Source: a virus. Taken from it: DNA of 22,762 bases. The position numbers and the translations under genes are program-made. Within the stretch, counting starts at the first letter, position 1. Each line of letters opens with the position of its first letter. Of the stretch, positions 1,838-19,445 are shown piece by piece. The notes below the pieces were generated by a model. It searched no databases and was not told the origin of the DNA. It saw only the letters and a program-made list of their open reading frames with translations. The stretch spans positions 1 to 22,762 of the IMG/VR virus record IMGVR_UViG_3300009786_000097. One strand, given 5' to 3'.

Positions 1838-1863
1838 AATGTTCTCGTTTAGAGCATGAATTG

Positions 1864-1898
1864 GGGGCGGTAGCTTTGTTGCTGCCGCCCCTATTTTT
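1864..1898 (+). terminator. rho-independent terminator
   Basis: An 11-bp stem GGGGCGGTAGC / GCTGCCGCCCC (one G-U pair) with loop TTTGTT is followed by TATTTTT. It ends only 13 nt before the ATG of the glycan operon and directly abuts the GGAGA ribosome site. It therefore ends the upstream unit and may also act as an attenuator for the operon. Confidence 0.85.
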
Positions 1899-1911
1899 GG
1901 AGAAAATTAAA

Positions 1912-2955
1912 ATGATTGATAGTCCATTTGAGCTTAAAATTACTTCCGATAATGCTTCTGGAGTTGTGTTAGACGAGGATGAGTTAAAGAAAAACGCAGT
2001 TCATAAAGATGCCAAAGGCGGCACTGAGTTAATGCTTGAGGGTTTGAAGTCTCGACTCGATCCTGAGCTTTGGGATAATTTCAATTTTATTATGTCGCGT
2101 GTGCGTGACGAATTTATTGATCCTGACAAACCCAACATTCTTTGGCTTCAGGATCTACCAGAAGATCCCGAGTCGGAGCATCTTAAAGAGGCATCTTCCC
2201 GCGAACGATTCGCCAAGATTGTATTTAATAGCCATTGGCAACAGCAACAGTATAATATGAAGCTGGGCGTTCCATATGAAGATGGTGTGGTACTGAAGAA
2301 TTGTTGCGAGCGTTTTGAGCCTCACGAAAAACCCAAGGACGATAAACTTCGCCTTGTGTATTTTTCTACTCCTCATCGCGGGCTTCATATTCTAGAATCA
2401 GCCATTCGTCATCTAGAAACTCAGCGTGATGATTTTGAAGTGGACATATATTCTAGCTTCAAAATTTATGGTTGGGAAGAAGAAGACAAGCAATTCCAAG
2501 AATTGTATGATCGCTTGGGTGAACTCAAATCGGTTAATTATTATGGCACAGTTTCAAACGATGAGATTCGTGGTGCTTTGACCAAGAGCCATATTCTTGC
2601 ATACCCTTCCACTTACATTGAAAGCTCATGTTGCGTTGCAATTGAAGCCATGGCCGCAGGGCTTTTGGCTGTTGTTCCTAACTATGGCGCATTGACTGAA
2701 ACCTGTACTGACTATGCATGGATGTATAATTGGGAATCAGATCCATCCAGACACGCCCAGAAGTATTCGGGTATTCTGAGCAACGCACTTGACCAATATT
2801 GGGAACCAGCCCTTCAGCAAATTTTAAAACTACAAGTCATATATTATAATTATTTCTATAGCTGGGACATGAGAGCATCGCAATGGACTTCATTACTTAC
2901 TGGCTTGAAGGCTGAGTTTGATGCTCGCCCCAAGCGAAAAAAGTATCCATATTAA
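1912..2955 (+). CDS. GT4-like glycosyltransferase
   Basis: The ATG at 1912 follows GGAGA by 8 nt. The in-frame TTG at 1861 would run through the terminator and is rejected. The 347-residue product has the GT-B, group-1 layout. A glycine-containing acceptor loop (AKGGTELMLEGL, near 34-45) is followed by the domain-linking strand with FSTPHRGL (151-158). The donor site near 227-250 includes SHILAYPSTY and IESSCCVAIEAMAAG, with the E-x7-E pair at E237 and E245. Such retaining enzymes transfer a sugar from a nucleotide donor to a growing glycan or a protein. It is the first gene of the glycan operon, 11 nt before the next gene. Donor and acceptor cannot be told from sequence. Confidence 0.8.
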   Translation: MIDSPFELKITSDNASGVVLDEDELKKNAVHKDAKGGTELMLEGLKSRLDPELWDNFNFIMSRVRDEFIDPDKPNILWLQDLPEDPESEHLKEASSRERFAKIVFNSHWQQQQYNMKLGVPYEDGVVLKNCCERFEPHEKPKDDKLRLVYFSTPHRGLHILESAIRHLETQRDDFEVDIYSSFKIYGWEEEDKQFQELYDRLGELKSVNYYGTVSNDEIRGALTKSHILAYPSTYIESSCCVAIEAMAAGLLAVVPNYGALTETCTDYAWMYNWESDPSRHAQKYSGILSNALDQYWEPALQQILKLQVIYYNYFYSWDMRASQWTSLLTGLKAEFDARPKRKKYPY

Positions 2956-2966
2956 GGAGATTCATA

Positions 2967-3665
2967 ATGGATCTTTTAGTTAAGTTTCCAACCCGTGGTA
3001 GATGTGAGAAATTCTTTACGGTGTTGGATTCGTTCGTGGAAAAACAGTCAGGCGACCATAATTGTCATTATCTAGTTTCTTGTGATACTGACGATGAGAC
3101 GATGAACAATCCAGATGCCATTAAGCGCCTTGAGTCATATGATAATCTTTCATACTATTTTGACGAACGGGCTGGTAAGATTGGTTCTGTAAATCGTGAC
3201 ATGGACAAGGCTCCAGACTATGATATTCTCATGCAGCCCGCAGATGATTGGCTGGCATTAGTGAATGGATGGGATGATAAAATTGTCGAAGAAATGGATG
3301 TATCTTTTGCTGATGGTGACGGTGTTGTCTGGTTTTTCGATGGTCATAATCGAGAGACTGATACACTTTGTATTATGGGCAAGCCTTATTACGAAAGGTT
3401 CGACTATATTTACTATCCTGAATATATCACCTTCTGGGCAGATACAGAATTTACTGCCGTGGCTGATTTACTAGATCGACTTTCGTTTAGCCCAGACGTT
3501 TTGTTTGAACATCAGCATCCTGATTGGATGCAGTCACATGGATATGATGGTCAGAAGCGTGGTTACGATCAGCTATATATTGATAACGATAAGCCAGAAG
3601 ATCGCGACTTTGATGAACGATTGTTCCATGAACGAAAGGCGAAGAATTTCGATTTAGAATTATGA
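2967..3665 (+). CDS. GT-A-like glycosyltransferase
   Basis: This 232-residue protein starts at an ATG with GGAGA 8 nt upstream. The N-terminus MDLLVKFPTRGRCEKFF resembles the opening strand of GT-A glycosyltransferases. A DTDDE stretch (40-44) and YDILMQPADDW (about 85-95) fit a nucleotide-binding DxD-type metal site. The C-terminal half has a conserved-looking segment HPDWMQSHGYDGQKRGYD that may bind the acceptor. It lies in the operon between a GT4-like enzyme and a methyltransferase-like protein. It is assigned by fold-pattern only; the specific GT family is not certain. Confidence 0.6.
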   Translation: MDLLVKFPTRGRCEKFFTVLDSFVEKQSGDHNCHYLVSCDTDDETMNNPDAIKRLESYDNLSYYFDERAGKIGSVNRDMDKAPDYDILMQPADDWLALVNGWDDKIVEEMDVSFADGDGVVWFFDGHNRETDTLCIMGKPYYERFDYIYYPEYITFWADTEFTAVADLLDRLSFSPDVLFEHQHPDWMQSHGYDGQKRGYDQLYIDNDKPEDRDFDERLFHERKAKNFDLEL

Positions 3666-3699
3666 TTATTTACATTACTGGGAAGAGGGAATATTTATT

Positions 3700-4365
3700 A
3701 TGTCGATAGATAAAATACCAAAAGAGGGGAGGACGGCCGGTTGGTTTATTTTTGTGGATGGAATACATACTCAACAAAGTTATAATATTACAGAATCATA
3801 TCCCATATTATTTGGCAATGAAAATTTCGATAGGTGTATTGTAATTGGGACATTTTTTGGTGGTTTGGAGGTTTTCATACGAAGACATTTAGATTTTTAT
3901 GGAGATATTATCTCTTATGATATTGTAGATCATCTTTCTCAACATCCTCATGATTGGTTTAGGGAGGTTGATGTAGGTCACTATAAGGAAACTATTATAG
4001 AAGAAGATGTTCATGGTGTTTTTGCTGAATGTGATATTTATTTGAGATTATTAGATGTGTTTAGTGAAGGGGGTATGTCGGAAATTAGTCAGTTAATTTC
4101 TCAGCCAGGAAAAACTCTACTAATTTGCGATGGTGGAAATAAGGCAAAGGAGATTGAAATTTTTTCTAAATATCTTAAATCTGGGGATATTGTTATAGGG
4201 CATGATTATTTTAAGGATGGTATTGTTGATGATACTATTTGGCTTCTTTGTGAGTTAGATATTTCTATGATTTCAACTGCCATTGATAATAATAATCTTG
4301 ATGCCGATAATGAATATACTGACTTGTTTGCAAAGAGTGCCTCTTTCATTGCAAGGAAATTATAG
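3700..4365 (+). CDS. SAM methyltransferase-like protein
   Basis: The 221-residue product has a pattern seen in CmcI/rhamnosyl O-methyltransferase-like class I methyltransferases. CIVIGTFFGGLEVFIRRH (about 45-63) takes the place of the glycine-rich SAM loop, TLLICDGG is a later strand ending in an acidic turn, and GDIVIGHDYF is the strand-loop normally holding the catalytic or metal-binding Asp. It could O-methylate a glycan sugar. The match is by spacing of motifs, so a related Rossmann protein without methyltransferase activity is possible. Codon use is markedly A+T-rich from here to about 10480, unlike the flanking genes. Confidence 0.5.
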   Translation: MSIDKIPKEGRTAGWFIFVDGIHTQQSYNITESYPILFGNENFDRCIVIGTFFGGLEVFIRRHLDFYGDIISYDIVDHLSQHPHDWFREVDVGHYKETIIEEDVHGVFAECDIYLRLLDVFSEGGMSEISQLISQPGKTLLICDGGNKAKEIEIFSKYLKSGDIVIGHDYFKDGIVDDTIWLLCELDISMISTAIDNNNLDADNEYTDLFAKSASFIARKL

Positions 4366-4370
4366 GGACT

Positions 4371-5192
4371 ATGATTGTTCATACAAACACACAAGTAAAA
4401 GACGAATCGCTGTTATTAGAAAAGGTTCTTCCGTTTTGGCAAGAATATGAAGTAGACGAGTTTGTGTTTGTTGATGATGGATCTACTGATAATACTGTTG
4501 AAGTGATTAAAGATTTCTTGGGTGACGAAGCTACAATATTAACTAGAGATGATTCGTTTCACCACGAAAGTTTATGTCGTTCGACTCTGCTGGAACATAG
4601 TAGAGGTGCAGAAGCCGATATTGTAATTTCTATGGATGCAGACGAGTTGTTATCTCATTCATTTGTCCGACATTTTGGTTGGGTTGTGGAGCAGGCATTA
4701 GACCTTAAATTGCTTGTGTATCAATATAATGTTGTTGGCTCTTTAGGTAAGATTCGACAAGACCCAGAATATATAAACAATTATCGAGATTTTATTTACC
4801 CAGTAAAGCATACTGGATATTATGATTTAACTAAGAGAGAATTTCATGATCCTAGAACTCCTCCTATAAATCTTCCGGCCGTTCCAATTAAAGATTGTGG
4901 ATTTATTCATTTACAAGCTCTTAATTTAAAATACTATGTGATAAAGCAACTTTGGTATAAGGTTTTAGAGTATAAAGAATATGGTAAAGATGTTGCTGAA
5001 ATTAATGCTGCATTTGATCCTGTGATTAATGGTTTGGATTTTTGTGAAGTAGATACGCCAAAAAATATTATCGGTGATTGGACCTTTGATTCGTCTGTCT
5101 ATGATAAAATTATAGACCAGCGCAATTATCTAGAATATATTCATGAACATGGTACTGAAGAATTATTTACATTTGGGAAGGAATATTTGTAA
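4371..5192 (+). CDS. GT2 family glycosyltransferase
   Basis: This 273-residue protein has a GT-A fold. The nucleotide-binding segment FVFVDDGSTDNTVEVI (31-46) is the hallmark of family 2, and ISMDADE (86-92) supplies the DxD metal site. The C-terminal part (HLQALNLKYYVIKQLWYK) is amphipathic and Tyr-rich but has no clear membrane span, so the enzyme is probably cytoplasmic. It begins 5 nt after the previous stop and ends 2 nt before the SDR gene. An inverting sugar transfer in the glycan pathway is expected; the sugar is unknown. Confidence 0.85.
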   Translation: MIVHTNTQVKDESLLLEKVLPFWQEYEVDEFVFVDDGSTDNTVEVIKDFLGDEATILTRDDSFHHESLCRSTLLEHSRGAEADIVISMDADELLSHSFVRHFGWVVEQALDLKLLVYQYNVVGSLGKIRQDPEYINNYRDFIYPVKHTGYYDLTKREFHDPRTPPINLPAVPIKDCGFIHLQALNLKYYVIKQLWYKVLEYKEYGKDVAEINAAFDPVINGLDFCEVDTPKNIIGDWTFDSSVYDKIIDQRNYLEYIHEHGTEELFTFGKEYL

Positions 5193-5194
5193 TA

Positions 5195-6163
5195 ATGCAG
5201 TATTTGATTACGGGCGGCGCCGGGTTTATTGGTTCACATCTTGTGGATAAACTTATCGGTAGAGGTGATAGTGTTGTTGTATTAGATGACTTGTCTACTG
5301 GTCGAATTGATAATCTCAGTCAACATAAAAATAATCCAAAATTAGAGATTGTTATCGGATCTATTTTGAATGTAGACCTTGTGGATGATTGTGTCCGTAG
5401 AGTTGATTCGGTACTTCATCTTGCCGCGGCTGTTGGTGTTAAGAATATTATTGATAAGCCGTTAGAAAGTCTTTCGACAAATATTCGTGGATCTGAAATT
5501 ATATTGGAGAAAGCTCATAAGTATTCTCGTCCAATTCTTGTTACCAGCACAAGTGAAATTTATGGAAAGAATGTTTCTGATTCTTTGGTTGAGGAGGATG
5601 ATAGAATTCTTGGTTCGCCGTTGAATGTTCGATGGTCATATAGCGAAGCAAAGGCTATTGAAGAGGTTCTTGCATATTCGTATTGGCGCAGTAAGAATCT
5701 TCCGGCTAGAATTGTTCGCCTTTTCAATACCGTGGGCCCACGCCAAGTTGGTTTTTATGGGATGGTAGTTCCTCGTTTTGTTGAGGCAGCTTTGCGTGGA
5801 GATGATATTACTGTATATGGAGATGGCAATCAAACAAGATGTTTTGGACATGTTGATGATATTACTGATGGTATTTTGTTGGTTCTAGAAAGTTCGGATA
5901 CAGTTGGTAAGGTTTTGAATATAGGAAACAACGAAGAGATTAGTATTTTTGATTTAGCGAAGCGAGTGATCGAGAAAACGAATTCTGATAGTGATATTGT
6001 TTTTATTCCGTATAAGGAAGCATATGGTGAAGGATTTGAAGATATGGAACGAAGGGTTCCGGGAACTCAATTGATTTATAATTTGGTTGGCTGGAAAGCT
6101 GTTAAGAATCTGGATGAAATTCTTTATGATGTTATTGCGGATGTTCAAAAAAGGATTTTATGA
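5195..6163 (+). CDS. NAD-dependent sugar epimerase/dehydratase (extended SDR)
   Basis: This is a 322-residue extended short-chain dehydrogenase acting on nucleotide sugars. GGAGFIG (7-13) is the NAD-binding loop, DDLS follows the second strand, STSEIYG (118-124) holds the catalytic Ser/Thr, and Y149xxxK153 is the catalytic pair. LFNTVGPRQ and VYGDGNQTRCFGHVDD are typical of the UDP-glucuronate decarboxylase / UDP-hexose epimerase branch. The C-terminal EAYGEGFEDMERRVP matches bacterial COG0451 members of that branch. It probably supplies one activated sugar for the neighbouring transferases. The exact reaction (4-epimerisation, decarboxylation or 4,6-dehydration) cannot be set from sequence alone. 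Confidence 0.88.
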   Translation: MQYLITGGAGFIGSHLVDKLIGRGDSVVVLDDLSTGRIDNLSQHKNNPKLEIVIGSILNVDLVDDCVRRVDSVLHLAAAVGVKNIIDKPLESLSTNIRGSEIILEKAHKYSRPILVTSTSEIYGKNVSDSLVEEDDRILGSPLNVRWSYSEAKAIEEVLAYSYWRSKNLPARIVRLFNTVGPRQVGFYGMVVPRFVEAALRGDDITVYGDGNQTRCFGHVDDITDGILLVLESSDTVGKVLNIGNNEEISIFDLAKRVIEKTNSDSDIVFIPYKEAYGEGFEDMERRVPGTQLIYNLVGWKAVKNLDEILYDVIADVQKRIL

Positions 6164-6309
6164 TGAGACAGCCAACAGAAGATTCGTTTTTATTATATCA
6201 TCATATGGGTCTGGGTGATTTTTTTCAGCTTACTGGTTTGACTAGAAGAATGTACTCAGAGGTCGGGTGTGATTGTTTTTATTTAATGGCCAAAGACATA
6301 TATGCATGA
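6163..6309 (+). pseudogene. truncated heptosyltransferase-like fragment
   Basis: ATG at 6163 opens a 48-codon frame. The segment LLYHHMGLGDFFQLTGLTRR resembles the N-terminus of ADP-heptose/GT9-like transferases, where an aliphatic strand is followed by GxGD and a helix. The gene at 7227 starts with the same kind of motif (GGFGD). The frame stops at a TGA after LMAKDIYA, far short of a full enzyme of 250-350 residues. A second short frame follows at 6302. I read this as the remnant of a deleted glycosyltransferase gene, though a functional short peptide cannot be excluded. Confidence 0.5.
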
Positions 6310-6418
6310 ATTTGATTTAAATGGAGGTAAGGGAAAACTTGGAATTGGTGACCACTCACCAAAAGTTCAAGCGGTATATAAGTCGTTCTGTTCAGATAGA
6401 GGTCTTATTTTGATATGA
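6302..6418 (+). CDS. 38-aa ORF, possibly remnant of a larger gene
   Basis: ATG at 6302 overlaps the end of the preceding fragment in another frame, and the stop overlaps the start of the next gene (ATATGA). The peptide, MHEFDLNGGKGKLGIGDHSP at its start, ends in a hydrophobic GLILI. It reads like genuine protein sequence, perhaps the C-terminal tail of a deleted enzyme joined out of frame to the fragment at 6163. No family is recognised and no good ribosome site is visible. Confidence 0.35.
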   Translation: MHEFDLNGGKGKLGIGDHSPKVQAVYKSFCSDRGLILI

Positions 6419-7224
6419 ATATTTTAATTAATTATGCACACGGCCGTTTTTATGAAAGTCAGAAAAATAATGCAAAAACAGGACTAGAAGTTGGGGGGTT
6501 TGATGAAGTTCGTACTTATAACTTTGATGATATTGACAAATCGTTTATGCGTAAAAATTGGCATATTTTAGGACATAAAACCGGCGCTGGATATTGGATG
6601 TGGAAAAGTTACTTTATTTTAAAAACTTTGAATGAGTGTAGCGAAGGTGATGTTGTTTGTTATTCTGATTCGGGCGCGTCTTTTATTGATAGTGCAAAAC
6701 CGTTGATTGATATTTGTCAGGAAAATGATATTCTTCCATTTTATCTTATTGATCCTGATAAGCCCAGTTTTGAATCGTCTAATGATCCTCGGGGGAAGAT
6801 TTTGTGGGAACGAGAGCAGACAAAGCGAGATGTATTTTATTATATGAATTGCGATGATATGGATGATGTTCGGGTACAGCAGGTACATGAAGCAAGGCCT
6901 CGATGTGGTTCGCCTCAGTTTTATCGTAAGTGTGATTTTACTATGCAATTTGTTAATGAGTATATGCGGTATTGCGAAGACTATAGATTAATTACTGACG
7001 CTCCAAATACATGTGGGTTTGATGACTATCCCGAAAATAAAGTATATAGACGCGACCAGTCTATTTTTAGTGTGTTTACCAAGATGTTAGGTATTAAGGC
7101 ATATCAAGATCCTGCATATCCTTCATTCAGCCAACTGCCCGATACTGGAAAATTTTACTCAAATGAAATGCCGTCTGAGATTTTATACCATCAAATTATT
7201 GATCCTCATAGGAAATCACAGTAG
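6415..7224 (+). CDS. putative glycosyltransferase, GYWxWK type
   Basis: The 269-residue product has the signature GAGYWMWKSYFILKTL (57-72) followed by GDVVCYSDSGASF (78-90). This is the layout of a group of putative GT-A transferases seen in capsule and phage loci, in which the aromatic GYWxWKP-like motif precedes a DxG/DxD metal site. RCGSPQFYRK and RRDQSIFSVF later in the chain fit acceptor-side motifs of the same group. It starts where the 38-aa ORF ends and stops 2 nt before the GT9-like gene. Function is inferred from motif and context. Confidence 0.6.
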   Translation: MNILINYAHGRFYESQKNNAKTGLEVGGFDEVRTYNFDDIDKSFMRKNWHILGHKTGAGYWMWKSYFILKTLNECSEGDVVCYSDSGASFIDSAKPLIDICQENDILPFYLIDPDKPSFESSNDPRGKILWEREQTKRDVFYYMNCDDMDDVRVQQVHEARPRCGSPQFYRKCDFTMQFVNEYMRYCEDYRLITDAPNTCGFDDYPENKVYRRDQSIFSVFTKMLGIKAYQDPAYPSFSQLPDTGKFYSNEMPSEILYHQIIDPHRKSQ

Positions 7225-7226
7225 TT

Positions 7227-7958
7227 ATGCCTAAATTAATGATGATGCAGTCTGGTGGGTTTGGTGATATAATTACTTGTGCCCCAATTGCGAAGAAATA
7301 TGCTGATTCTGGGTATGATGTGTATTGGCCTGTTCGTGAAATGATGTTAGATTTGCTCAGTAGATTTGATTATGTAACTCCAATAGTGTTGAATGATAGT
7401 GATGATATACCTATAAATTCTGGATTAAATTCTGGACCTGATGATTGGCTTAAAGCTGATGTGGTTAAGTGTCTGAAAATTTATGAGGAAGAAGGTTTTG
7501 ATTATGCGTTAAATTTGGCAGACAGGGGCCCCCACCCAACTGCACAATTACCACATGAAACATGTCAAGAGCCTAAGTATAGGTTGTCTAATGTTCCGTT
7601 CGAGGAAATTTATAATTTATCATGGACGAGAAATATAAACAAAGAAGAGTCGTTATACACAGAATTGGTGGGATCGGAAGACGAATATGTTTTAGCTGCG
7701 TTAACCTCTTCTGATAATGAAGTTAAATTACCTATTCAACCAGATTGTAAAGTGATCGAAATGGATATAAAGGATGGGTATGTGATTTTTGATTGGTACA
7801 AAATCATCAAGAATGCCAAAGCTATCTATGCAGTAGAGAGTTCTTTTCATTGTTTTATGGATGGTATTATTCATGAAATTACTTGCCCAAAATATAGACT
7901 TCAAAGAATGCCAGGAAGATACTATACTGTATCTGAACATTGGACGAATTATGATTGA
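7227..7958 (+). CDS. heptosyltransferase-like (GT9-like) protein
   Basis: The 243-residue protein opens with KLMMMQSGGFGDIITCAPIA, the typical first strand, GxGD loop and helix of ADP-heptose:LPS heptosyltransferases and related GT-B enzymes. Near the C-terminus, KIIKNAKAIYAVESSFHCFM resembles the donor-site segment in which a Ser/Asp and a His-containing helix bind the nucleotide sugar. It is shorter than usual heptosyltransferases (about 300-350), so it may be a compact variant. It overlaps the DUF6165 gene by 8 nt. Confidence 0.65.
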   Translation: MPKLMMMQSGGFGDIITCAPIAKKYADSGYDVYWPVREMMLDLLSRFDYVTPIVLNDSDDIPINSGLNSGPDDWLKADVVKCLKIYEEEGFDYALNLADRGPHPTAQLPHETCQEPKYRLSNVPFEEIYNLSWTRNINKEESLYTELVGSEDEYVLAALTSSDNEVKLPIQPDCKVIEMDIKDGYVIFDWYKIIKNAKAIYAVESSFHCFMDGIIHEITCPKYRLQRMPGRYYTVSEHWTNYD

Positions 7959-8352
7959 TATAATAATTCCAGTTTCGGCTGGTGAGTTAATGGATAAATT
8001 GACGATATTAGAAATTAAGAAGAATAGAATTGCCGATAGTCATAAATTGAGGTTTATTAATGATGAATATGATCGGTTGAATGAAATTGCAATTCGGCTT
8101 GATTTATATACTATTGTTGATGCGAAGGTTTTAGATAATTTAAGATTAGTTAACCTAGCCTTATGGAATATTATCAACGAAATGATGATTATGGAAACTA
8201 CTGAAACTTTTAATTATGTGTATTATGATTTGGCTAAAAAAATTCGTTCATTAAACGACGATAGATATGAATGCAAATCTGCTATTGATAATATTATAGA
8301 CAGTGATGTGAAAGAACAAAAAGGATACACTGATGTGGAAATTAATGACTGA
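7951..8352 (+). CDS. DUF6165-like protein
   Basis: The ATG at 7951 overlaps the previous gene by 8 nt. In-frame starts further upstream lie wholly inside that gene and give unlike sequence. The N-terminus IIIPVSAGELMDKLTILEIK matches the hallmark of the DUF6165 family (V-S-x-G-E-x-x-D-K-L-T-I-L-E-I-K). The rest of the 133 residues is helical with a Tyr- and charge-rich middle. DUF6165 genes are often found beside surface-polysaccharide and heptosyltransferase genes, and their function is unknown. Here it is wedged between a GT9-like enzyme and a PLP enzyme, which fits a helper role in glycan synthesis. Confidence 0.7.
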   Translation: MIDIIIPVSAGELMDKLTILEIKKNRIADSHKLRFINDEYDRLNEIAIRLDLYTIVDAKVLDNLRLVNLALWNIINEMMIMETTETFNYVYYDLAKKIRSLNDDRYECKSAIDNIIDSDVKEQKGYTDVEIND

Positions 8353-9460
8353 TGATGCAATTTTAGATACTGAAAGAAGGGAACTAAGTGAGTTTATATT
8401 AAATTCGGAAAAATTAACTCAGGGTCCAGTTGTAAAAGAATTTGAAGATGCATGGTCAAAATGGCAGGGATGTGAATATTCCGTTTTCGTTAATTCTGGA
8501 TCATCTGCTAATTTATTATTGGTGCGGGCTTTGGCAGATAGAGGACATAATTGGATCTGTCAATCGTCCACTTGGATCACCAATGTTTCTCCTGTAATTC
8601 AAAATAATTTAAATCTTCTTTTGTGTGATATTAGTCTTGATAATTTTGGTCCTAGATTAGATTCGCTTGAGCAGATGTTTAAAGAGAATCGAGATTGTGT
8701 TTTGTTTCTTACCCATTTTATTGGATTTCCTGCAATTAGCGATGCTCTTTTAGATTTATGTTTAAAATATAATGTTACTCTTGTAGAGGATTGTTGTGAA
8801 TCTCATGGTGCAACTTTTGGTGAAAAGAAGATTGGTAATTTTGGAGTTGCTTCTTCTTTTTCTTTTTATTATGGGCATCACATGACTACCATTGAGGGGG
8901 GAATGATATGTACTGATGATGAAGAATTATATCACCAATTTTTGTTGTTGCGATCCCATGGTATGTTGAGGGAGCTTCCTGCGGATAAGCAAGATCAATA
9001 TGTTGTTGATGGTGTAGATCCTAAGTTTACTTTTTTGCGAGATGGTTATAATGTAAGAAGTTGTGAAATTAATGCAAAACTTGGAATTATGCAGATTCCG
9101 CGAATGAATCAAAATATTGAAATTAGAAATGGTAACTATAGAGAATTTGTTTCTGGGTTAGATGATGCTAAATATTATTGTAATTTTGATGATGATGGAA
9201 TTAGTTCATTTTGTCTTCCTATTATTACCAAAACTGGAAATATTTCTGAAGTGAAAAAATTATTAGATTCTGAGGGCATTGAGCATCGACCATTTATAGG
9301 CGGAAATTTATATAAACATCCTCCGTTTAATGATAGAGTTGTAGACCATTTTGAATTAAATTCTGAGTATATTAATTCAAATTGTGTGTACGTTGGAAAT
9401 CATCAGGACATTACATTGGGTATGGTTTCTGATTTGGTTTTACAGTTAAATAAATTATAG
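8333..9460 (+). CDS. ColD-like PLP-dependent 3-dehydratase (DegT/AHBA fold)
   Basis: The 375-residue product is a fold-type I PLP enzyme of the DegT/DnrJ/EryC1/StrS group. VNSGSSAN (53-60) binds the cofactor phosphate and VEDCCESHGA (151-160) supplies the PLP-ring Asp. The segment SFSFYYGHHMTTIEGG (175-190) has His182 where sugar aminotransferases have the Schiff-base Lys. That substitution is the mark of GDP-4-keto-6-deoxymannose 3-dehydratase (ColD) and of CDP-6-deoxy-glucoseen E1, which remove the 3-hydroxyl to make 3,6-dideoxy sugars. ATG at 8333 has AAAGGA 7 nt upstream and lies inside the DUF6165 gene by 20 nt. A GDP-linked substrate would fit the GDP-mannose epimerase next door. Confidence 0.85.
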   Translation: MWKLMTDDAILDTERRELSEFILNSEKLTQGPVVKEFEDAWSKWQGCEYSVFVNSGSSANLLLVRALADRGHNWICQSSTWITNVSPVIQNNLNLLLCDISLDNFGPRLDSLEQMFKENRDCVLFLTHFIGFPAISDALLDLCLKYNVTLVEDCCESHGATFGEKKIGNFGVASSFSFYYGHHMTTIEGGMICTDDEELYHQFLLLRSHGMLRELPADKQDQYVVDGVDPKFTFLRDGYNVRSCEINAKLGIMQIPRMNQNIEIRNGNYREFVSGLDDAKYYCNFDDDGISSFCLPIITKTGNISEVKKLLDSEGIEHRPFIGGNLYKHPPFNDRVVDHFELNSEYINSNCVYVGNHQDITLGMVSDLVLQLNKL

Positions 9461-9469
9461 GAGTTTATT

Positions 9470-10480
9470 GTGAAGAGAATTTTGGTATGTGGTGCAGGTG
9501 GGTTTATCGGCAGTAGTTTGGTGTCTCGATTAAAGACCGATGGCCATTGGGTTCGTGGTGTTGCCACTAAAGAGCCTGTGTGGGTCCGCGGTGTTGATAT
9601 AAAGCGGCCGGAATTTGCGCCTACTGCTGCTGATGATTTTGTTGTAGGTGATTTGCGCGATCAGGCATTTTGTGAAAGTATTTTTGAACAATATGATGAG
9701 GTGTATCAGTTTGCTGCGGATATGGGTGGTGCCGGTTATATTTTTACGGGCGACCATGATGCCGATGTGATGCATAATTCTGCACAGATTAATTTGAACA
9801 TTGCTGAGAACTGTAGAAAGTATGGAGTTGGAAAGGTATTTTTCTCTTCTTCGGCATGTATGTATCCAGAACACAATCAGTTGGATGCTGATAATCCAAA
9901 TTGTGCCGAAGCGTCTGCTTATCCTGCTGATCCTGATTCTGAATATGGTTGGGAAAAATTATTCAGCGAACGATTGTATCTTGCGTACCATCGTAATTAT
10001 GGGTTGAATGTGCGTATTGCGCGTTATCATAATATTTTTGGGCCTGAGGGTACATATAAGGGTGGTAAAGAAAAAGCTCCTGCTGCGATGTGCCGAAAAG
10101 CTGCGGAAGCTGTAAACGGTACTGAGATTGAGGTGTGGGGTGATGGTACTCAAACACGATCATTTTTGTATATTGATGAGTGTATTGAGGCCACTTTGCG
10201 ATTAATGGATTCTGATTTTACTGGTCCAGTAAATATTGGATCTGAAGAAATGATTGCAATTAATGATTTTGCTCAAATGGCTATTGATATTTCGGGAAAA
10301 AATTTGGTTATTAAGAATGTTGATGGTCCTAGAGGTGTTCAAGGAAGATGTTCTGATAATAATTTAATTGCTGAGAAATTAGGTTGGGCACCTAGTAAGC
10401 CTCTTAAAGTGGGTATGGAAAAAACTTATCGTTGGATTTCGGGCGAACTTGACAATATTGCTATGTGGCAGAATTTGTGA
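9470..10480 (+). CDS. GDP-mannose 3,5-epimerase (GME-like)
   Basis: This is a 336-residue extended SDR. CGAGGFIGSSL (7-17) binds NAD, and AADMGGAGYIF (82-92) is a GME hallmark. SSSACMYPE (126-134) contains the catalytic Cys130, and Y159GWEK163 is the Tyr/Lys pair. GPEGTYKGGKEKAPAAMCRK (191-210) contains the second acid/base Lys202, followed by VWGDGTQTRSFLYIDE. These match the GDP-mannose 3,5-epimerase family, which converts GDP-D-mannose to GDP-L-galactose and GDP-L-gulose. The GTG start at 9470 has AGGAG 6 nt upstream. The next gene overlaps its stop (GTGA). It probably feeds a rare L-sugar to the transferases of this operon. Confidence 0.88.
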   Translation: MKRILVCGAGGFIGSSLVSRLKTDGHWVRGVATKEPVWVRGVDIKRPEFAPTAADDFVVGDLRDQAFCESIFEQYDEVYQFAADMGGAGYIFTGDHDADVMHNSAQINLNIAENCRKYGVGKVFFSSSACMYPEHNQLDADNPNCAEASAYPADPDSEYGWEKLFSERLYLAYHRNYGLNVRIARYHNIFGPEGTYKGGKEKAPAAMCRKAAEAVNGTEIEVWGDGTQTRSFLYIDECIEATLRLMDSDFTGPVNIGSEEMIAINDFAQMAIDISGKNLVIKNVDGPRGVQGRCSDNNLIAEKLGWAPSKPLKVGMEKTYRWISGELDNIAMWQNL

Positions 10481-11397
10481 AAGCCTTAGTAGTTCCGCTC
10501 TGTAGCACAACTGTTTCAAAAGAAGAATTGCTTCGGTGCGTTAATTCTGTTGTAGACCAAGAGTACCATCCATTTGAATGGGATTTGAAAGTTGTCTGTA
10601 ATACGAACGACGATGATTATTACAACGGAATTAAATCAGCCATCAAGGACTTTGAGGTCGTCAAGACCAAGAGCAATGGTGGTAATGGAATGGGGCATAA
10701 CTCTGTTCTTGACTTATATAAGAGTCTGTACAAGAAAGAGAACTATACCCATTTGATTATGATTGATGGTGATGATTTTTATTACCCATGTGCATTTGAA
10801 TCCATTGGCGATCTTAATCAGATTGTCGATTTCGATTACCTGAGTAATATGCAGATTACTGATTCGGTAAGATGCCACGAAACCCAGCAGCCACACAAAG
10901 AAGTGATTCCTGGTGCCTGGCTTCATTCCTATTTCAATTTTCGATTTCCAGTTCCATCATACACTTATTGGGACGGGCACAACTGTACCGGGGGTGAAGT
11001 GACGCTGGCCATCTCTTCGAGGGCTGTCGAATGTGATTTGAAACATCTGGAAGTTCCTAATATTCCGGATGACTTTACGCACATGCTCTGGGCTCTGAAG
11101 GCTCATGTCGAGGGTAAACTTTTATTTGTGAATACTGACTGCAATGATGTCTATGTTTATGACAAGACGAATCCAATCGGTACGACGAATCAACCAGAAT
11201 TCGTATTCAGCCCAGATCAATGGCCTGAGGCTGAACGGCAATTGTTACGAGGGAATACGTTTGAATGCCTGCGCGACTTCAATCGCCAACAATTGCCATG
11301 GGTAACAATACCACAAATCATGAGCCCAGAGGAAAAGATTGATTTCGTAAAGGCAAACTTAATTAATAAAGGGCAATTCAAGAATTGGCAAGCATAG
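10477..11397 (+). CDS. GT2-like glycosyltransferase
   Basis: This 306-residue protein is the last gene of the glycan operon. I chose the GTG at 10477, which overlaps the preceding stop as GTGA; a GTG four codons upstream (10465) is the alternative. The N-terminal KALVVPLCSTTVSKEELLRC resembles the first strand-helix of GT2, and THLIMIDGDDFYYP (91-104) carries the DxD-type metal site (DGDD 97-100). The middle contains PSYTYWDGHNCTGGE, possibly an acceptor site. Base composition shifts back toward the core-phage norm within this gene. Confidence 0.65.
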   Translation: MKALVVPLCSTTVSKEELLRCVNSVVDQEYHPFEWDLKVVCNTNDDDYYNGIKSAIKDFEVVKTKSNGGNGMGHNSVLDLYKSLYKKENYTHLIMIDGDDFYYPCAFESIGDLNQIVDFDYLSNMQITDSVRCHETQQPHKEVIPGAWLHSYFNFRFPVPSYTYWDGHNCTGGEVTLAISSRAVECDLKHLEVPNIPDDFTHMLWALKAHVEGKLLFVNTDCNDVYVYDKTNPIGTTNQPEFVFSPDQWPEAERQLLRGNTFECLRDFNRQQLPWVTIPQIMSPEEKIDFVKANLINKGQFKNWQA

Positions 11398-14630: not shown

Positions 14631-14640
14631 TATCAAGGGG

Positions 14641-14695
14641 TTTTCGTTTCCCTATAGGAAGCGAGAAAAAAAGTGGCAATGTAAAACTTGCCACT
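14641..14695. repeat. tandem hairpins; second is a minus-strand terminator shape
   Basis: Hairpin 1 pairs 14641-14651 with 14657-14668 (about 11 bp, one bulge). Hairpin 2 is a perfect 8-bp stem, AGTGGCAA (14672-14679) and TTGCCACT (14688-14695). A run of As (14666-14671) lies on its left, so read on the minus strand it is a hairpin followed by a T-run, the form of an intrinsic terminator for leftward transcripts. On the plus strand there is no T-run after it. Confidence 0.6.
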
Positions 14696-14715
14696 ATCAT
14701 TAAATAGGCGAATAA

Positions 14716-14721
14716 TATAAT
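14716..14721 (+). promoter_or_regulatory. TATAATA box before structured RNA
   Basis: TATAATAGGGG places a -10-like box immediately upstream of the 5' strand of the closing helix of the predicted RNA (starting 14723). No convincing -35 is seen. Initiation would fall within or just after the GGGGTTCTA strand, so the exact 5' end matters. Confidence 0.35.
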
Positions 14722-15136
14722 AGGGGTTCTATAGAGGACCGTGAATTGAACGGAGTAGCAAACGCCGTAGACTGCGGTTAGTAGCGAATGAGGCTCAGCT
14801 GGCCTTGAGGGAGATTCACGGAGAATTTATGGATAGCCGAGTACCGATACGGCGAATGAATTGTTGGAGTTTGGGAAGTAGTTTTCCTTTGCAATGACAG
14901 ATATAGGTCCTGCTCGGAGAGCCGGCTACTGGAGCCGTTAGTCGTTAAGTCGGGGTGGATCCTTAAAGGAAGAGTCATACTTAATATTTGTGTTGGTAGT
15001 GTTCGGGTACGAATGCATTGACCCTTCACAGAATGGCTTGTGATTTTTGGAGTAGAAACCCTGATGGTCCCCACGGGGGATAGGGCACTTATCATACAAT
15101 TGTACGGGGGGAGTACCTTCCCCCCGCGCCTTTTTT
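14722..15136 (+). ncRNA. large structured non-coding RNA candidate
   Basis: A stretch of about 400 nt between genes with no convincing ORF on the coding strand but dense pairing potential. A closing helix pairs GGGGTTCTA (14723-14731) with TAGAA-A-CCCT (15053-15062), 9 bp with one bulge. Inside lie the 8-bp helix CCGTGAAT/ATTCACGG (14739-14746/14814-14821), enclosing a hairpin at 14789-14807, and hairpins at 14836-14853, 14873-14887, 14923-14937 (CGGCT/AGCCG), 14999-15016 (7 bp) and 15026-15043. TTAAGT/ACTTAA (14945-14950/14979-14984) encloses a further hairpin at 14960-14970. TCCCC-acg-GGGGA (15068-15080) and a terminator follow. The size, multibranched form and phage/tRNA setting recall GOLLD and ROOL RNAs, but I see no specific motif that assigns it to either, nor to RNase P RNA, tmRNA or a group I/II intron. 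Confidence 0.7.
15105..15136 (+). terminator. intrinsic terminator of the structured RNA
   Basis: An 8-bp stem CGGGGGGA / TCCCCCCG (15105-15112 / 15119-15126) with loop GTACCT is followed, after four bases (CGCC), by six Ts (15131-15136). It lies 31 nt before the next gene and would end the structured RNA at about 15136. The four-base gap before the T-run is slightly unusual. Confidence 0.75.
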
Positions 15137-15167: not shown

Positions 15168-15620
15168 ATGGATATGAAACCTTACGACAATCAATTAAGA
15201 GTTCCCTCTGATGAGCTTGTAGAAATGTATTTAAGCAACGAGCATAATGCCACACCAATCAAAATGCTCATTGGTACTTGCGACAAACAAAAGCAGTTTT
15301 GGATTTCCAAAAATATAGACCACGGCGATACTGTTATTATGTCCGATCATGATGATTCTGATGATTCTATTTTTACCCGATGGAAAATAAATCGAGGTTT
15401 GGCCAAACAAATTAAAATGGCCAGGAGTAAGGATCAACGCATTATTTGGTTCTGTGGGGGGTTAACCCAAAAGGATCGGAATCGTGTCCTAAAGCATTTG
15501 CCGAACTACAGGAAATATGCTGTTGTTTGGGAAGAAGATATAGATCAAATGTTGAGTGATGGATATGAACGCCCCACCTTAGATGAAGGCTTTGATGATT
15601 TCACTTACATTGTTTCATAA
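15168..15620 (+). CDS. degenerate PNK/P-loop-kinase-like protein
   Basis: This 150-residue protein starts at an ATG with AAGGA 9 nt upstream. The order of motifs resembles phage polynucleotide-kinase-type P-loop proteins. IKMLIGTCDKQKQFWISKNI (31-50) stands where Walker A would be; G36 and K42 are kept but the second Gly and the Ser/Thr are Gln. DTVIMSDHDD follows at the place of the catalytic Asp. RIIWFCGGLTQKDRNRVLKH (91-110) aligns with the Walker B strand and the R-rich lid ('D-N-T-N...R' in active enzymes). An inactive or repurposed kinase fold is inferred; it could equally be unrelated. Confidence 0.6.
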   Translation: MDMKPYDNQLRVPSDELVEMYLSNEHNATPIKMLIGTCDKQKQFWISKNIDHGDTVIMSDHDDSDDSIFTRWKINRGLAKQIKMARSKDQRIIWFCGGLTQKDRNRVLKHLPNYRKYAVVWEEDIDQMLSDGYERPTLDEGFDDFTYIVS

Positions 15621-16209: not shown

Positions 16210-16275
16210 CCCGCCCCCCGAGTCAGAGAGCGTCTTAGGGAGAAAAGACCCGGAGAGGGCGTCCTCCGCCGCTCC

Positions 16276-16348
16276 AAAACTCCTTTAGAATCAAACACTT
16301 AGAACAACCATGTGGATTTCTCAAAACCCCTTTGGAATCAATCACTTA
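16276..16348. repeat. 26-bp imperfect direct repeat, two copies
   Basis: Copy 1 (16276-16301) begins AAAACTCCTTTAGAATC and ends ACACTTA. Copy 2 (16323-16348) begins AAAACCCCTTTGGAATC and ends TCACTTA. They agree at 23 of 26 positions with start-to-start distance 47 bp. They lie just upstream of a sigma70-like promoter and could be binding sites for a regulator. Confidence 0.65.
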
Positions 16349-16350
16349 CA

Positions 16351-16402
16351 AACGAAGTTTTTTCGTTCAATCCCTTGACTTTATCTGAATCTGAGGTATA
16401 CT
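16351..16402 (+). promoter_or_regulatory. hairpin plus sigma70-like promoter
   Basis: AACGAA/TTCGTT (16351-16356/16362-16367) forms an inverted repeat that ends 7 nt before TTGACT (16375-16380). TATACT (16397-16402) follows after 16 bp, continuing TTATATG. The promoter faces the tRNA-like element and the genes from 16725. Confidence 0.8.
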
Positions 16403-16422
16403 TTATATGTAGCTGAGAGAGG

Positions 16423-16454
16423 CGCCCGGGGATACATTCATTGCCCCCCAGGCG
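16423..16454 (+). other. leader hairpin
   Basis: CGCC-C-GGGG (16423-16431) pairs with CCCC-CCA-GGCG (16444-16454) around a 12-nt loop. It lies in the leader between the promoter and the tRNA-like element. It has no T-run after it, so it is not a standard terminator; it may protect or help process the transcript. Confidence 0.5.
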
Positions 16455-16470
16455 AACTAAAAATTTGTGG

Positions 16471-16601
16471 GACCCCATCGTCTAATTGGTAAGACATCGC
16501 AACGATTGGTAATCACCGAATCTCCCTTTACTTTTCCTAACCAGCTAAGTTTTGGGGTGTTTTCGGGGCGGGGAATGCAGGTTCAATTCCTGCTGGGGTC
16601 A
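16471..16601 (+). tRNA. tRNA-Glu(TTC)-like gene interrupted in the anticodon arm
   Basis: The acceptor stem GACCCCA (16471-16477) / TGGGGTC (16594-16600), D arm GTCT-AATTGGTA-AGAC and T arm GCAGG-TTCAATT-CCTGC are perfect, and the 5' half looks like bacterial tRNA-Glu. At 16560-16571, TTTTCGG followed by GGCGG gives an anticodon loop with U33 and TTC (16562-16564) plus the 3' stem. The 5' stem TCGC (16497-16500) is separated from it by about 59 nt (16501-16559), and only four stem pairs form. The insert itself can fold (GATTGGT / ACC-G-AATC). It is far too short for a group I intron. CCA is not encoded. It may be a decayed tRNA, a tRNA with an unusual intervening sequence, or a tRNA-like RNA. 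Confidence 0.55.
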
Positions 16602-16614
16602 GCATCTACCAAAC

Positions 16615-16688
16615 AGAGCCGGAAGGTTCTGGGATAACGAGGCGTCTGAAGCACGCCTACAACCCTGAAAGGGGAGAGGGTAGAGGTT
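16615..16688 (+). other. cluster of three hairpins after the tRNA-like element
   Basis: AGAGCC-GGAA-GGTTCT (16615-16630), AGGCGT-ctgaagc-ACGCCT (16640-16658) and CCCT-GAAA-GGGG (16663-16674), the last flanked by AACC/GGTT (16661-16664/16685-16688) as an alternative closing pair. They fill the leader before the gene at 16725 and form with the tRNA-like element a continuous structured transcript. Confidence 0.5.
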
Positions 16689-16724
16689 CCCATCCAGTTC
16701 GATAAATCAACGATAGAGGAAGAT

Positions 16725-18519: not shown

Positions 18520-18726
18520 ATGCCTATCTATGAATATGGATGTAAATACTGCGAGCATACGTTTGAAGTCTGGCAAAAAGTAAATTCCAGGCGAAAGCGA
18601 AAATGCCCAGAATGTTCTCGAAAAAATGCGCTAAATATATTACTTGGTCGAACATCTTTTAAGTTGAAAGGTGGAGGCTGGTATAAAGATGGTTATTCTA
18701 ATGTTTCAAAAAAAGAAACTGATTAA
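18520..18726 (+). CDS. FmdB-like zinc-ribbon protein
   Basis: The 68-residue product begins MPIYEYGCKYCEHTFEVWQK and has a second pair in KCPECSRK. This is the zinc-ribbon of the FmdB family (putative regulatory protein), where the start MPxYxYxCxxCxxxFE is diagnostic. The rest (LLGRTSFKLKGGGWYKDGYS) also matches the family tail. In phages such proteins may act in nucleic-acid binding or transcription; the function is not established. A second member lies at 19164. Confidence 0.85.
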   Translation: MPIYEYGCKYCEHTFEVWQKVNSRRKRKCPECSRKNALNILLGRTSFKLKGGGWYKDGYSNVSKKETD

Positions 18727-19163: not shown

Positions 19164-19445
19164 ATGCCACTATATTCATATGAATGTAAGTCCTGTAAGA
19201 ATTTTTTTGAAGATTCTTATAGAATTGCTGAACGAAATATTCCTACAGAAAAGCCTTGCATCAAATGTGATGGTGAAGTTGTCCAGGTAATTATGGGAAT
19301 GAATATTGGTGATTCGGTTCGACTCGGTATCACAAAACCGAGTAGTGAATTTAAAGAGGTATTAACGAAAATTAGTGATGCTCATCCTCGTAGCAAACTG
19401 CACGAAAAACTTTCGCAGGGGAGGCGAAAAAAAGGATTTGATTGA
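19164..19445 (+). CDS. FmdB-like zinc-ribbon protein (second copy)
   Basis: The 93-residue product begins MPLYSYECKSCKNFFEDSYR and has a second knuckle PCIKCDGEV, giving the FmdB zinc-ribbon. It has a longer C-terminal tail than the copy at 18520, ending in HPRSKLHEKLSQGRRKKG, which is basic. The shared start motif suggests the two arose by duplication or were acquired together. The stop overlaps the start of the nuclease gene (TGATG). Confidence 0.85.
   Translation: MPLYSYECKSCKNFFEDSYRIAERNIPTEKPCIKCDGEVVQVIMGMNIGDSVRLGITKPSSEFKEVLTKISDAHPRSKLHEKLSQGRRKKGFD

Follow-up and report, generated by a model that had tools for sequence, protein, structure and literature searches.

A previously uncatalogued family of structured noncoding RNA in uncultured bacteria-infecting viruses

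Results

The RNA locus and its phage setting

The stretch of DNA analysed here (the window) is a virus record of 22.8 kb, in which a structured RNA of about 400 nt, measured from helix P0 to the terminator, lies on the plus strand at positions 14736-15136; its 5' edge is the start of the first covarying helix rather than a mapped transcript end, and its 3' edge falls where the T tract of the terminator stops. That a conserved structured RNA is encoded at these positions we regard as practically certain. The exonuclease of the window is T4 RNase H-like (Pfam RNaseH_C and 5_3_exonuc_N), and its closest named relatives are found in Methylophilales phages (Melnitz, 55% identity), Melnitz being classified under Kyanoviridae, and in cyanophages (about 50%). 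Moreover, the 107-kb source contig of one homologue, L096, encodes a T4-type major capsid protein Gp23 (E 4e-121). Given the exonuclease kinship and this Gp23, the window phage is probably T4-like.

A contig of the same phage group (L091, contig DUZG01000082.1) is filed in a Nitrospinota metagenome-assembled genome. It is 99% identical to the homologue L004 across 1249 shared bases and thus represents the same phage, and its placement may stem from faulty binning or may point to the host. Since the RNA is absent from the other searched genomes of the Nitrospinota phylum, we assign no host.

The original prediction had described this part of the window as gene-free and had named a conserved protein frame as the finding that would speak against an RNA. 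The stretch is indeed gene-free: every candidate frame is interrupted by stops or frameshifts across the homologues, and none is conserved. The only long ORF (105 aa, minus strand, 14778-15095) does not stay open in L005, L006, L007 and L008, where stops or frameshifts break it, and has no match in L096.

Homologues share the same genomic slot

Seven further homologues of the RNA were found beside that of the window, all in uncultured phage contigs and in the same genomic slot. An exonuclease search yielded L003-L008, whose RNA regions are 98% (L003), 90% (L004), 86% (L005), 84% (L006), 71% (L008) and 69% (L007) identical to the window by blastn. A search with orf3 added L096 and L098, in whose loci nhmmer finds the RNA (E 2e-9); these two form a single lineage, being identical across 560 nt at this locus, and the set comprises eight distinct sequences with an effective diversity nearer five. 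Where the contigs extend that far, the RNA is placed 3' of a small basic ORF and 5' of the gene 'down' or of orf3. In most homologues 'down' comes next, while in L096 no gene stands between the RNA and orf3; orf3 and orf4 lie downstream of the RNA in the window, L005, L006, L007, L008 and L096, that is, in all homologues reaching that far. Two hairpins at 14637-14695 (plus strand) separate the small basic ORF from the RNA; judged by eye, close relatives share them, and L007 and L008 lack them.

Over aligned columns, the window and L008 share about 69% nucleotide identity in the RNA, compared with 73% in the exonuclease, 61% in orf3, 51% in p461, 50% in the small ORF and 48% in the downstream gene. 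The gene directly after the RNA (15168-15620, plus strand) is fast-evolving, its protein being 28% identical in amino acids to the L008 counterpart while the RNA keeps its roughly 69% nucleotide identity; it is unmatched in L096, and searches of Pfam and PHROGs returned no match. Between the window and L096, nucleotide identity is 52% in the RNA, 70% in the exonuclease and 56% in orf3: the RNA sequence has diverged and its pairing is retained.

Wider searches added little. More distant phages that share the exonuclease yielded no match to the RNA at their loci, many of which are short fragments, and when the RNAs of the window and L096 were compared with phage records by blastn, nothing useful emerged (two 36-nt matches, E 0.6). 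Relaxed DNA patterns run over viral contigs recovered, beyond the known members, only L099 and L106, both of the L096 lineage; pattern matches in L087-L089, L100-L105 and L107-L111 were rejected because nhmmer did not align them convincingly with the RNA. When 93 sources were scanned with a covariance model built on the 5' domain, only the known members were returned, together with L102 (E 0.25), which we took as a chance match. An 18-nt similarity between 15032-15049 and coding sequence about 1 kb downstream was likewise judged to be chance, as it is same-sense and unmatched in L008's own RNA, and GGAG repeats considered as Shine-Dalgarno mimics were rejected because, by eye, they are not conserved in L008 or L096.

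Covariation supports a multibranched fold

Alignment folding and covariation bear out a large multibranched phage RNA. A hand-made structural alignment contains 13 helices and the terminator, most of them with compensatory changes, which is the outcome that the original prediction had proposed to look for among homologues. That prediction had put the number of hairpins at eight or more, and the homologues support nine (P2, P3, P4, P5, P7, P8, P12, P13 and the terminator). As covariation shows, the RNA folds into a 5' three-way junction, a hairpin-bearing middle section and a 3' domain that P6 closes, the last less firmly. All elements described below are on the plus strand.

The three-way junction, which contains P2 and P3, is closed by P1 (14739-14746/14814-14821), the 8-bp helix already picked out in the window sequence and now strongly confirmed. 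P1 has 8 bp in seven of the eight homologues and 7 bp in L006; its strands CCGUGAAU/AUUCACGG are replaced by CAUAUUCA/UGAAUAUG in L007 and CUUACCAA/UUGGUAAG in L096, and two-sided changes occur at 7/8 pairs, the most of any helix. The P2 hairpin (14764-14767/14775-14778) reads GCCG/CGGU, CCCG/CGGG, ACCC/GGGU or ACCA/UGGU across the homologues, with 100% of cells paired, and AGUAG-containing sequence on both flanking strands suggests a likeness to loop-E modules. The P3 hairpin (14791-14794/14802-14805) varies among AGGC/GCCU, GGGC/GCCC, CGGA/UCCG and GGAU/AUCC.

In the middle region, the P4 hairpin (14836-14839/14850-14853) pairs GCCG with CGGC or CGGU, and in L096 GCCC with GGGC, and P5a (14862-14865/14896-14899; UGUU/GACA, UGUC/GACG, UAUU/AGUA or UGUC/GACA) encloses P5b (14873-14875/14886-14888). 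The 3' domain is closed by P6 (14900-14903/15090-15093 and 14907-14911/15082-15086), the weakest of the accepted helices, in which 81-94% of cells are paired and the changes are mostly one-sided (U-G to U-A). Two hairpins follow within this domain: P7 (14912-14915/14919-14922; GCUC/GAGC, ACUC/GAGU or UCCC/GGGA) and P8 (14923-14927/14933-14937; CGGCU/AGCCG, in L096 CGGUG/CACCG), the latter with a loop, ACUGG, that is invariant in 8/8 sequences. P9 (14950-14955/15059-15064) changes from UCGGGG/CCCUGA to GCGAGC/GCUCGU in L096, and P10 (14973-14978/15033-15038) from AGUCAU/AUGGCU to AGUCA/UGACU in L005 and AAUCAUAC/GUGUGAUU in L008. The P12 hairpin (14999-15005/15010-15016) is GUGUUCG/CGAAUGC in the window, GUAUUCG/CGAAUAC in L006, GUGCCUG/CGGGCAU in L008 and GGUUG/CAACC in L096, and the P13 hairpin (15068-15072/15076-15080) is UCCCC/GGGGA, with UCUUGC/GCAAGA in L005, UUUCU/AGAAA in L008 and AUCUA/UAGAU in L096; one hand-entered P13 pairing for L007 is missing from its sequence and was not counted.

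Closing helices, a possible switch and the promoter

The 9-bp helix that had been proposed to enclose the whole RNA (14723-14731/15053-15062) did not hold up: it needs a bulged A in the window, its cells are paired no more often than in shuffles (67.7% versus 68.8%), and it shows no covariation. Instead, an alternative closing helix, P0 (14736-14742/15064-15070; GGACCGU/AUGGUCC), has 96.2% of cells paired and two-sided changes at four pairs. P0 shares positions with both P1 and P13, and in each homologue its stability falls short of that of P1 by 2.5-8.6 kcal/mol; for this comparison the L096 pairing, which contains an internal loop, was supplied manually. P0 could represent a minor state or a step in folding, or its signal could stem in part from the covariation of P1. 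A conformational switch had been suggested from a competing pair, AGGACC/GGTCCT (14735-14740/14906-14911), which shows zero two-sided changes and is unsupported; the more general idea fared better, since P0 covaries and overlaps the 8-bp P1, so that a switch between these two long-range pairings may exist.

The TATAATA box noted at the 5' edge is present in the window (14716-14722), where one sigma-70-like site matches at 10/12 positions (14688-14716), but no clear promoter-like site is conserved at the corresponding place in L005, L006, L008 or L096.

The terminator and a predicted loop-loop contact

The RNA has its own intrinsic terminator, as had been predicted. At 15105-15136 it reads CGGGGGGA-GTACCT-TCCCCCCG followed by T6, with the stem at 15105-15112/15119-15126 and the loop GUACCU at 15113-15118. 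It is invariant in seven homologues, whereas in L096 the stem is swapped for CCGGGGAG/CUCCCCGG, leaving it intact in 8/8 sequences. Inspection of the alignment by eye revealed no conserved antiterminator or other strand competing for this stem.

A pair scan showed that the P12 loop (GGGUAC, 15005-15010) is complementary to the terminator loop (GUACCU, 15113-15118), a relation that is new here and had been missed in the original prediction. Seven homologues carry both loops without change. The most distant relative, L096, has GUGGCA in the P12 loop and CUUGCCA in that of the terminator, where UGGCA and UGCCA are fully complementary; by our own arithmetic, the probability that random loops of 6 and 7 nt would offer a five-pair Watson-Crick match is about 0.6% (6/1024), although this register was noticed after inspection and the docking rests on one independent replacement. 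If G15005 pairs with C15010, the P12 loop shrinks to four bases and the contact to four pairs. We consider this complementarity supportive, not conclusive, of a kissing contact, which may be intra- or intermolecular.

Folding statistics

Taken alone, the folding of the single window sequence is weak evidence for structure (-137.7 kcal/mol, z -1.67, 9/100 shuffles as good), and the comparison with shuffled controls foreseen in the original prediction gave a clear result only for alignments. With the terminator left out, RNAalifold run without the covariance term gave z -6.5 for seven sequences, -7.4 for eight and -8.2 for three, and 0/80 column shuffles matched the energy of each alignment. Since every shuffled alignment receives its own new structure prediction, this test is free of selection bias, and we regard the alignment folding as the decisive evidence for structure. 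The fold is also strand-specific (sense -150.5 versus -101.7 for the reverse complement).

In the tool alignment, 91.2% of cells are paired in the 5' domain, with two-sided changes in 12/20 pairs, and 89.7% in the 3' domain together with the terminator and the loop contact, with two-sided changes in 17/52 pairs; these counts are lowered by misplaced L096 rows on P1. None of 500 letter shuffles, which ignore relatedness, reached the pairing values of either domain, and sliding the partner strand by 1-3 columns reduced pairing to 34-51%. As the helices were picked by eye from the same sequences in which they were then counted, the pair counts lean toward structure, and the slid controls leave this bias in place. 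A null model that preserves relatedness predicts 0.08 helices with at least seven pairs and at least two two-sided changes, against three observed (P1, P12 and P0).

Comparison with known RNA classes

The original prediction had assigned the RNA to no known class, and this was borne out against Rfam 15: at the gathering score only tRNAs pass in the window and its relatives, with no GOLLD, ROOL, manA or wcaG, and at permissive thresholds (E <=10 in the window region, E <=5 in L096) no GOLLD, ROOL, manA, wcaG, OLE, RNase P or tmRNA appears. ARAGORN likewise found no tmRNA. A description of the RNA was not found in the openly licensed literature, and an earlier report may exist elsewhere. Hence, we consider it to represent a previously uncatalogued family of noncoding RNA from uncultured bacteria-infecting viruses, with an elaborate fold that evolution has preserved.

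The nearest in kind are GOLLD and ROOL, both of them longer, and the suggested kinship with them was not upheld, as the RNA matches neither model and is shorter than both. GOLLD is a large multibranched RNA of phages and prophages that is often found near tRNA genes, and many of its members exceed 800 nt (PMC12286853); the present RNA shares the multibranched form, the phage setting and tRNA genes in the region, and differs in size. ROOL is a large ornate RNA of phages and prophages, with kissing loops in its structure and a solved example of 659 nt (PMC12286853). The likeness of the present RNA to it lies in the ornate phage-borne form and in the complementarity of the P12 and terminator loops, whose putative contact may lie within one molecule or between two; in ROOL the kissing loops are intermolecular. 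Both solved RNAs form homo-oligomeric, RNA-only cages whose purpose is not understood (PMC12286853). The lytic phage ICP1 produces an abundant, ORF-less long noncoding transcript of about 800 nt as estimated from RNA-seq coverage (PMC7567579), similar to the present RNA in being a long noncoding phage RNA with a role that is not understood; it differs in length, and blastn of the present RNA gave no useful match in the phage collection. Finally, manA and wcaG are structured RNAs of T4-like cyanophages and marine metagenomes (PMC2864571); their Rfam models do not match the present RNA, and they have been described as cis-acting elements that precede metabolic genes.

Discussion

Our collective results are best explained by a free-standing, self-terminated, trans-acting RNA of about 400 nt belonging to a new family, a reading to which we give a probability of roughly 0.68. 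Transcription would stop at the RNA's own terminator, yielding a discrete transcript, and since the next gene differs among the homologues ('down' in most, orf3 directly in L096), the RNA is not tied to one downstream gene and would act in trans. We tentatively suggest a role as a scaffold, a decoy or a self-assembling oligomer during infection. The terminator hairpin also appears to belong to the fold: docking of its loop on P12 would protect the 3' end or would link neighbouring molecules. A bolder reading, which we consider less likely than not, takes the terminator as a tertiary element whose kissing loop locks the 3' end or joins monomers into an RNA-only assembly, with the P0/P1 exchange acting as an assembly switch.

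The strongest competing explanation, which we nonetheless consider improbable, is that the RNA is a very long 5' leader, riboswitch-like or an attenuator, of the downstream operon, with the terminator as the expression platform and either the P12-terminator contact or P0/P1 as the switch. Because orf3 and orf4 lie downstream wherever the homologues reach, such a role for their operon must be weighed; the terminator stands about 30 nt 5' of the next start codon, P0 and P1, each of which covaries, cannot form together, and cis elements of this sort (manA and wcaG) are carried by T4-like cyanophages (PMC2864571). Against it, the first downstream gene varies, and the terminator hairpin is intact in all homologues and faces no conserved competing strand in the inspected alignment. 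Usual leaders, moreover, are far smaller than about 400 nt, and the size thus speaks against this explanation.

Less probable still is a reading in which the exonuclease operon ends in a structured 3' UTR, made by read-through and perhaps released by processing, that would protect the message or the released fragment. This idea arises because no promoter is conserved in the window, L005, L006, L008 and L096, and the RNA begins soon after the small ORF in L007 and L008. However, the fold is far more elaborate than message protection requires, and in close relatives the two hairpins seen by eye separate the ORF from the RNA. The phage setting, the long multibranched form and the tRNA genes of the region might also point to a divergent member of a known large class (GOLLD, ROOL, OLE, RNase P or tmRNA) missed by the models, yet none of these is among even the permissive Rfam matches for the window and L096 and ARAGORN calls no tmRNA, which leaves this very unlikely. 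Chance folding of an untranslated spacer would suit the unremarkable single-sequence energy, but is refuted by the two-sided changes in most helices and by the alignment z-scores.

Large structured phage RNAs are few, and the RNA described here adds a further, shorter family that matches neither GOLLD nor ROOL. With a supported secondary structure and eight natural variants, it lends itself to study by chemical probing and cryo-EM. It would, if true, be unusual for a terminator hairpin to form part of a tertiary fold, and the loop exchange in L096 predicts a direct test by compensatory mutation.

Several other features of the window deserve mention. A tRNA-like element of 131 nt (16471-16601, plus strand) passes the Rfam tRNA score (44.5 bits) while carrying about 60 extra nt between the D and T arms, and ARAGORN makes no call on it. 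Its length is kept in L003 (4437-4566) and L091 (2898-3027, minus strand), and L005 and L006 do not align there as such an element. Around it lies a second ORF-poor stretch of about 500 nt (16210-16724, plus strand), and L003, L005, L006 and L008 likewise have gaps at the matching place. A run of sugar-metabolism genes occupies 1861-11397 (plus strand), in which Pfam identifies NAD-dependent epimerases (5195-6163 and 9470-10480) and a DegT-type aminotransferase (8333-9460), with neighbours that look glycosyltransferase-like by eye. Two small plus-strand proteins, beginning MPIYEYGCKYC (18520-18726) and MPLYSYECKSC (19164-19445), carry paired cysteines and, by eye, share a related zinc-ribbon look.
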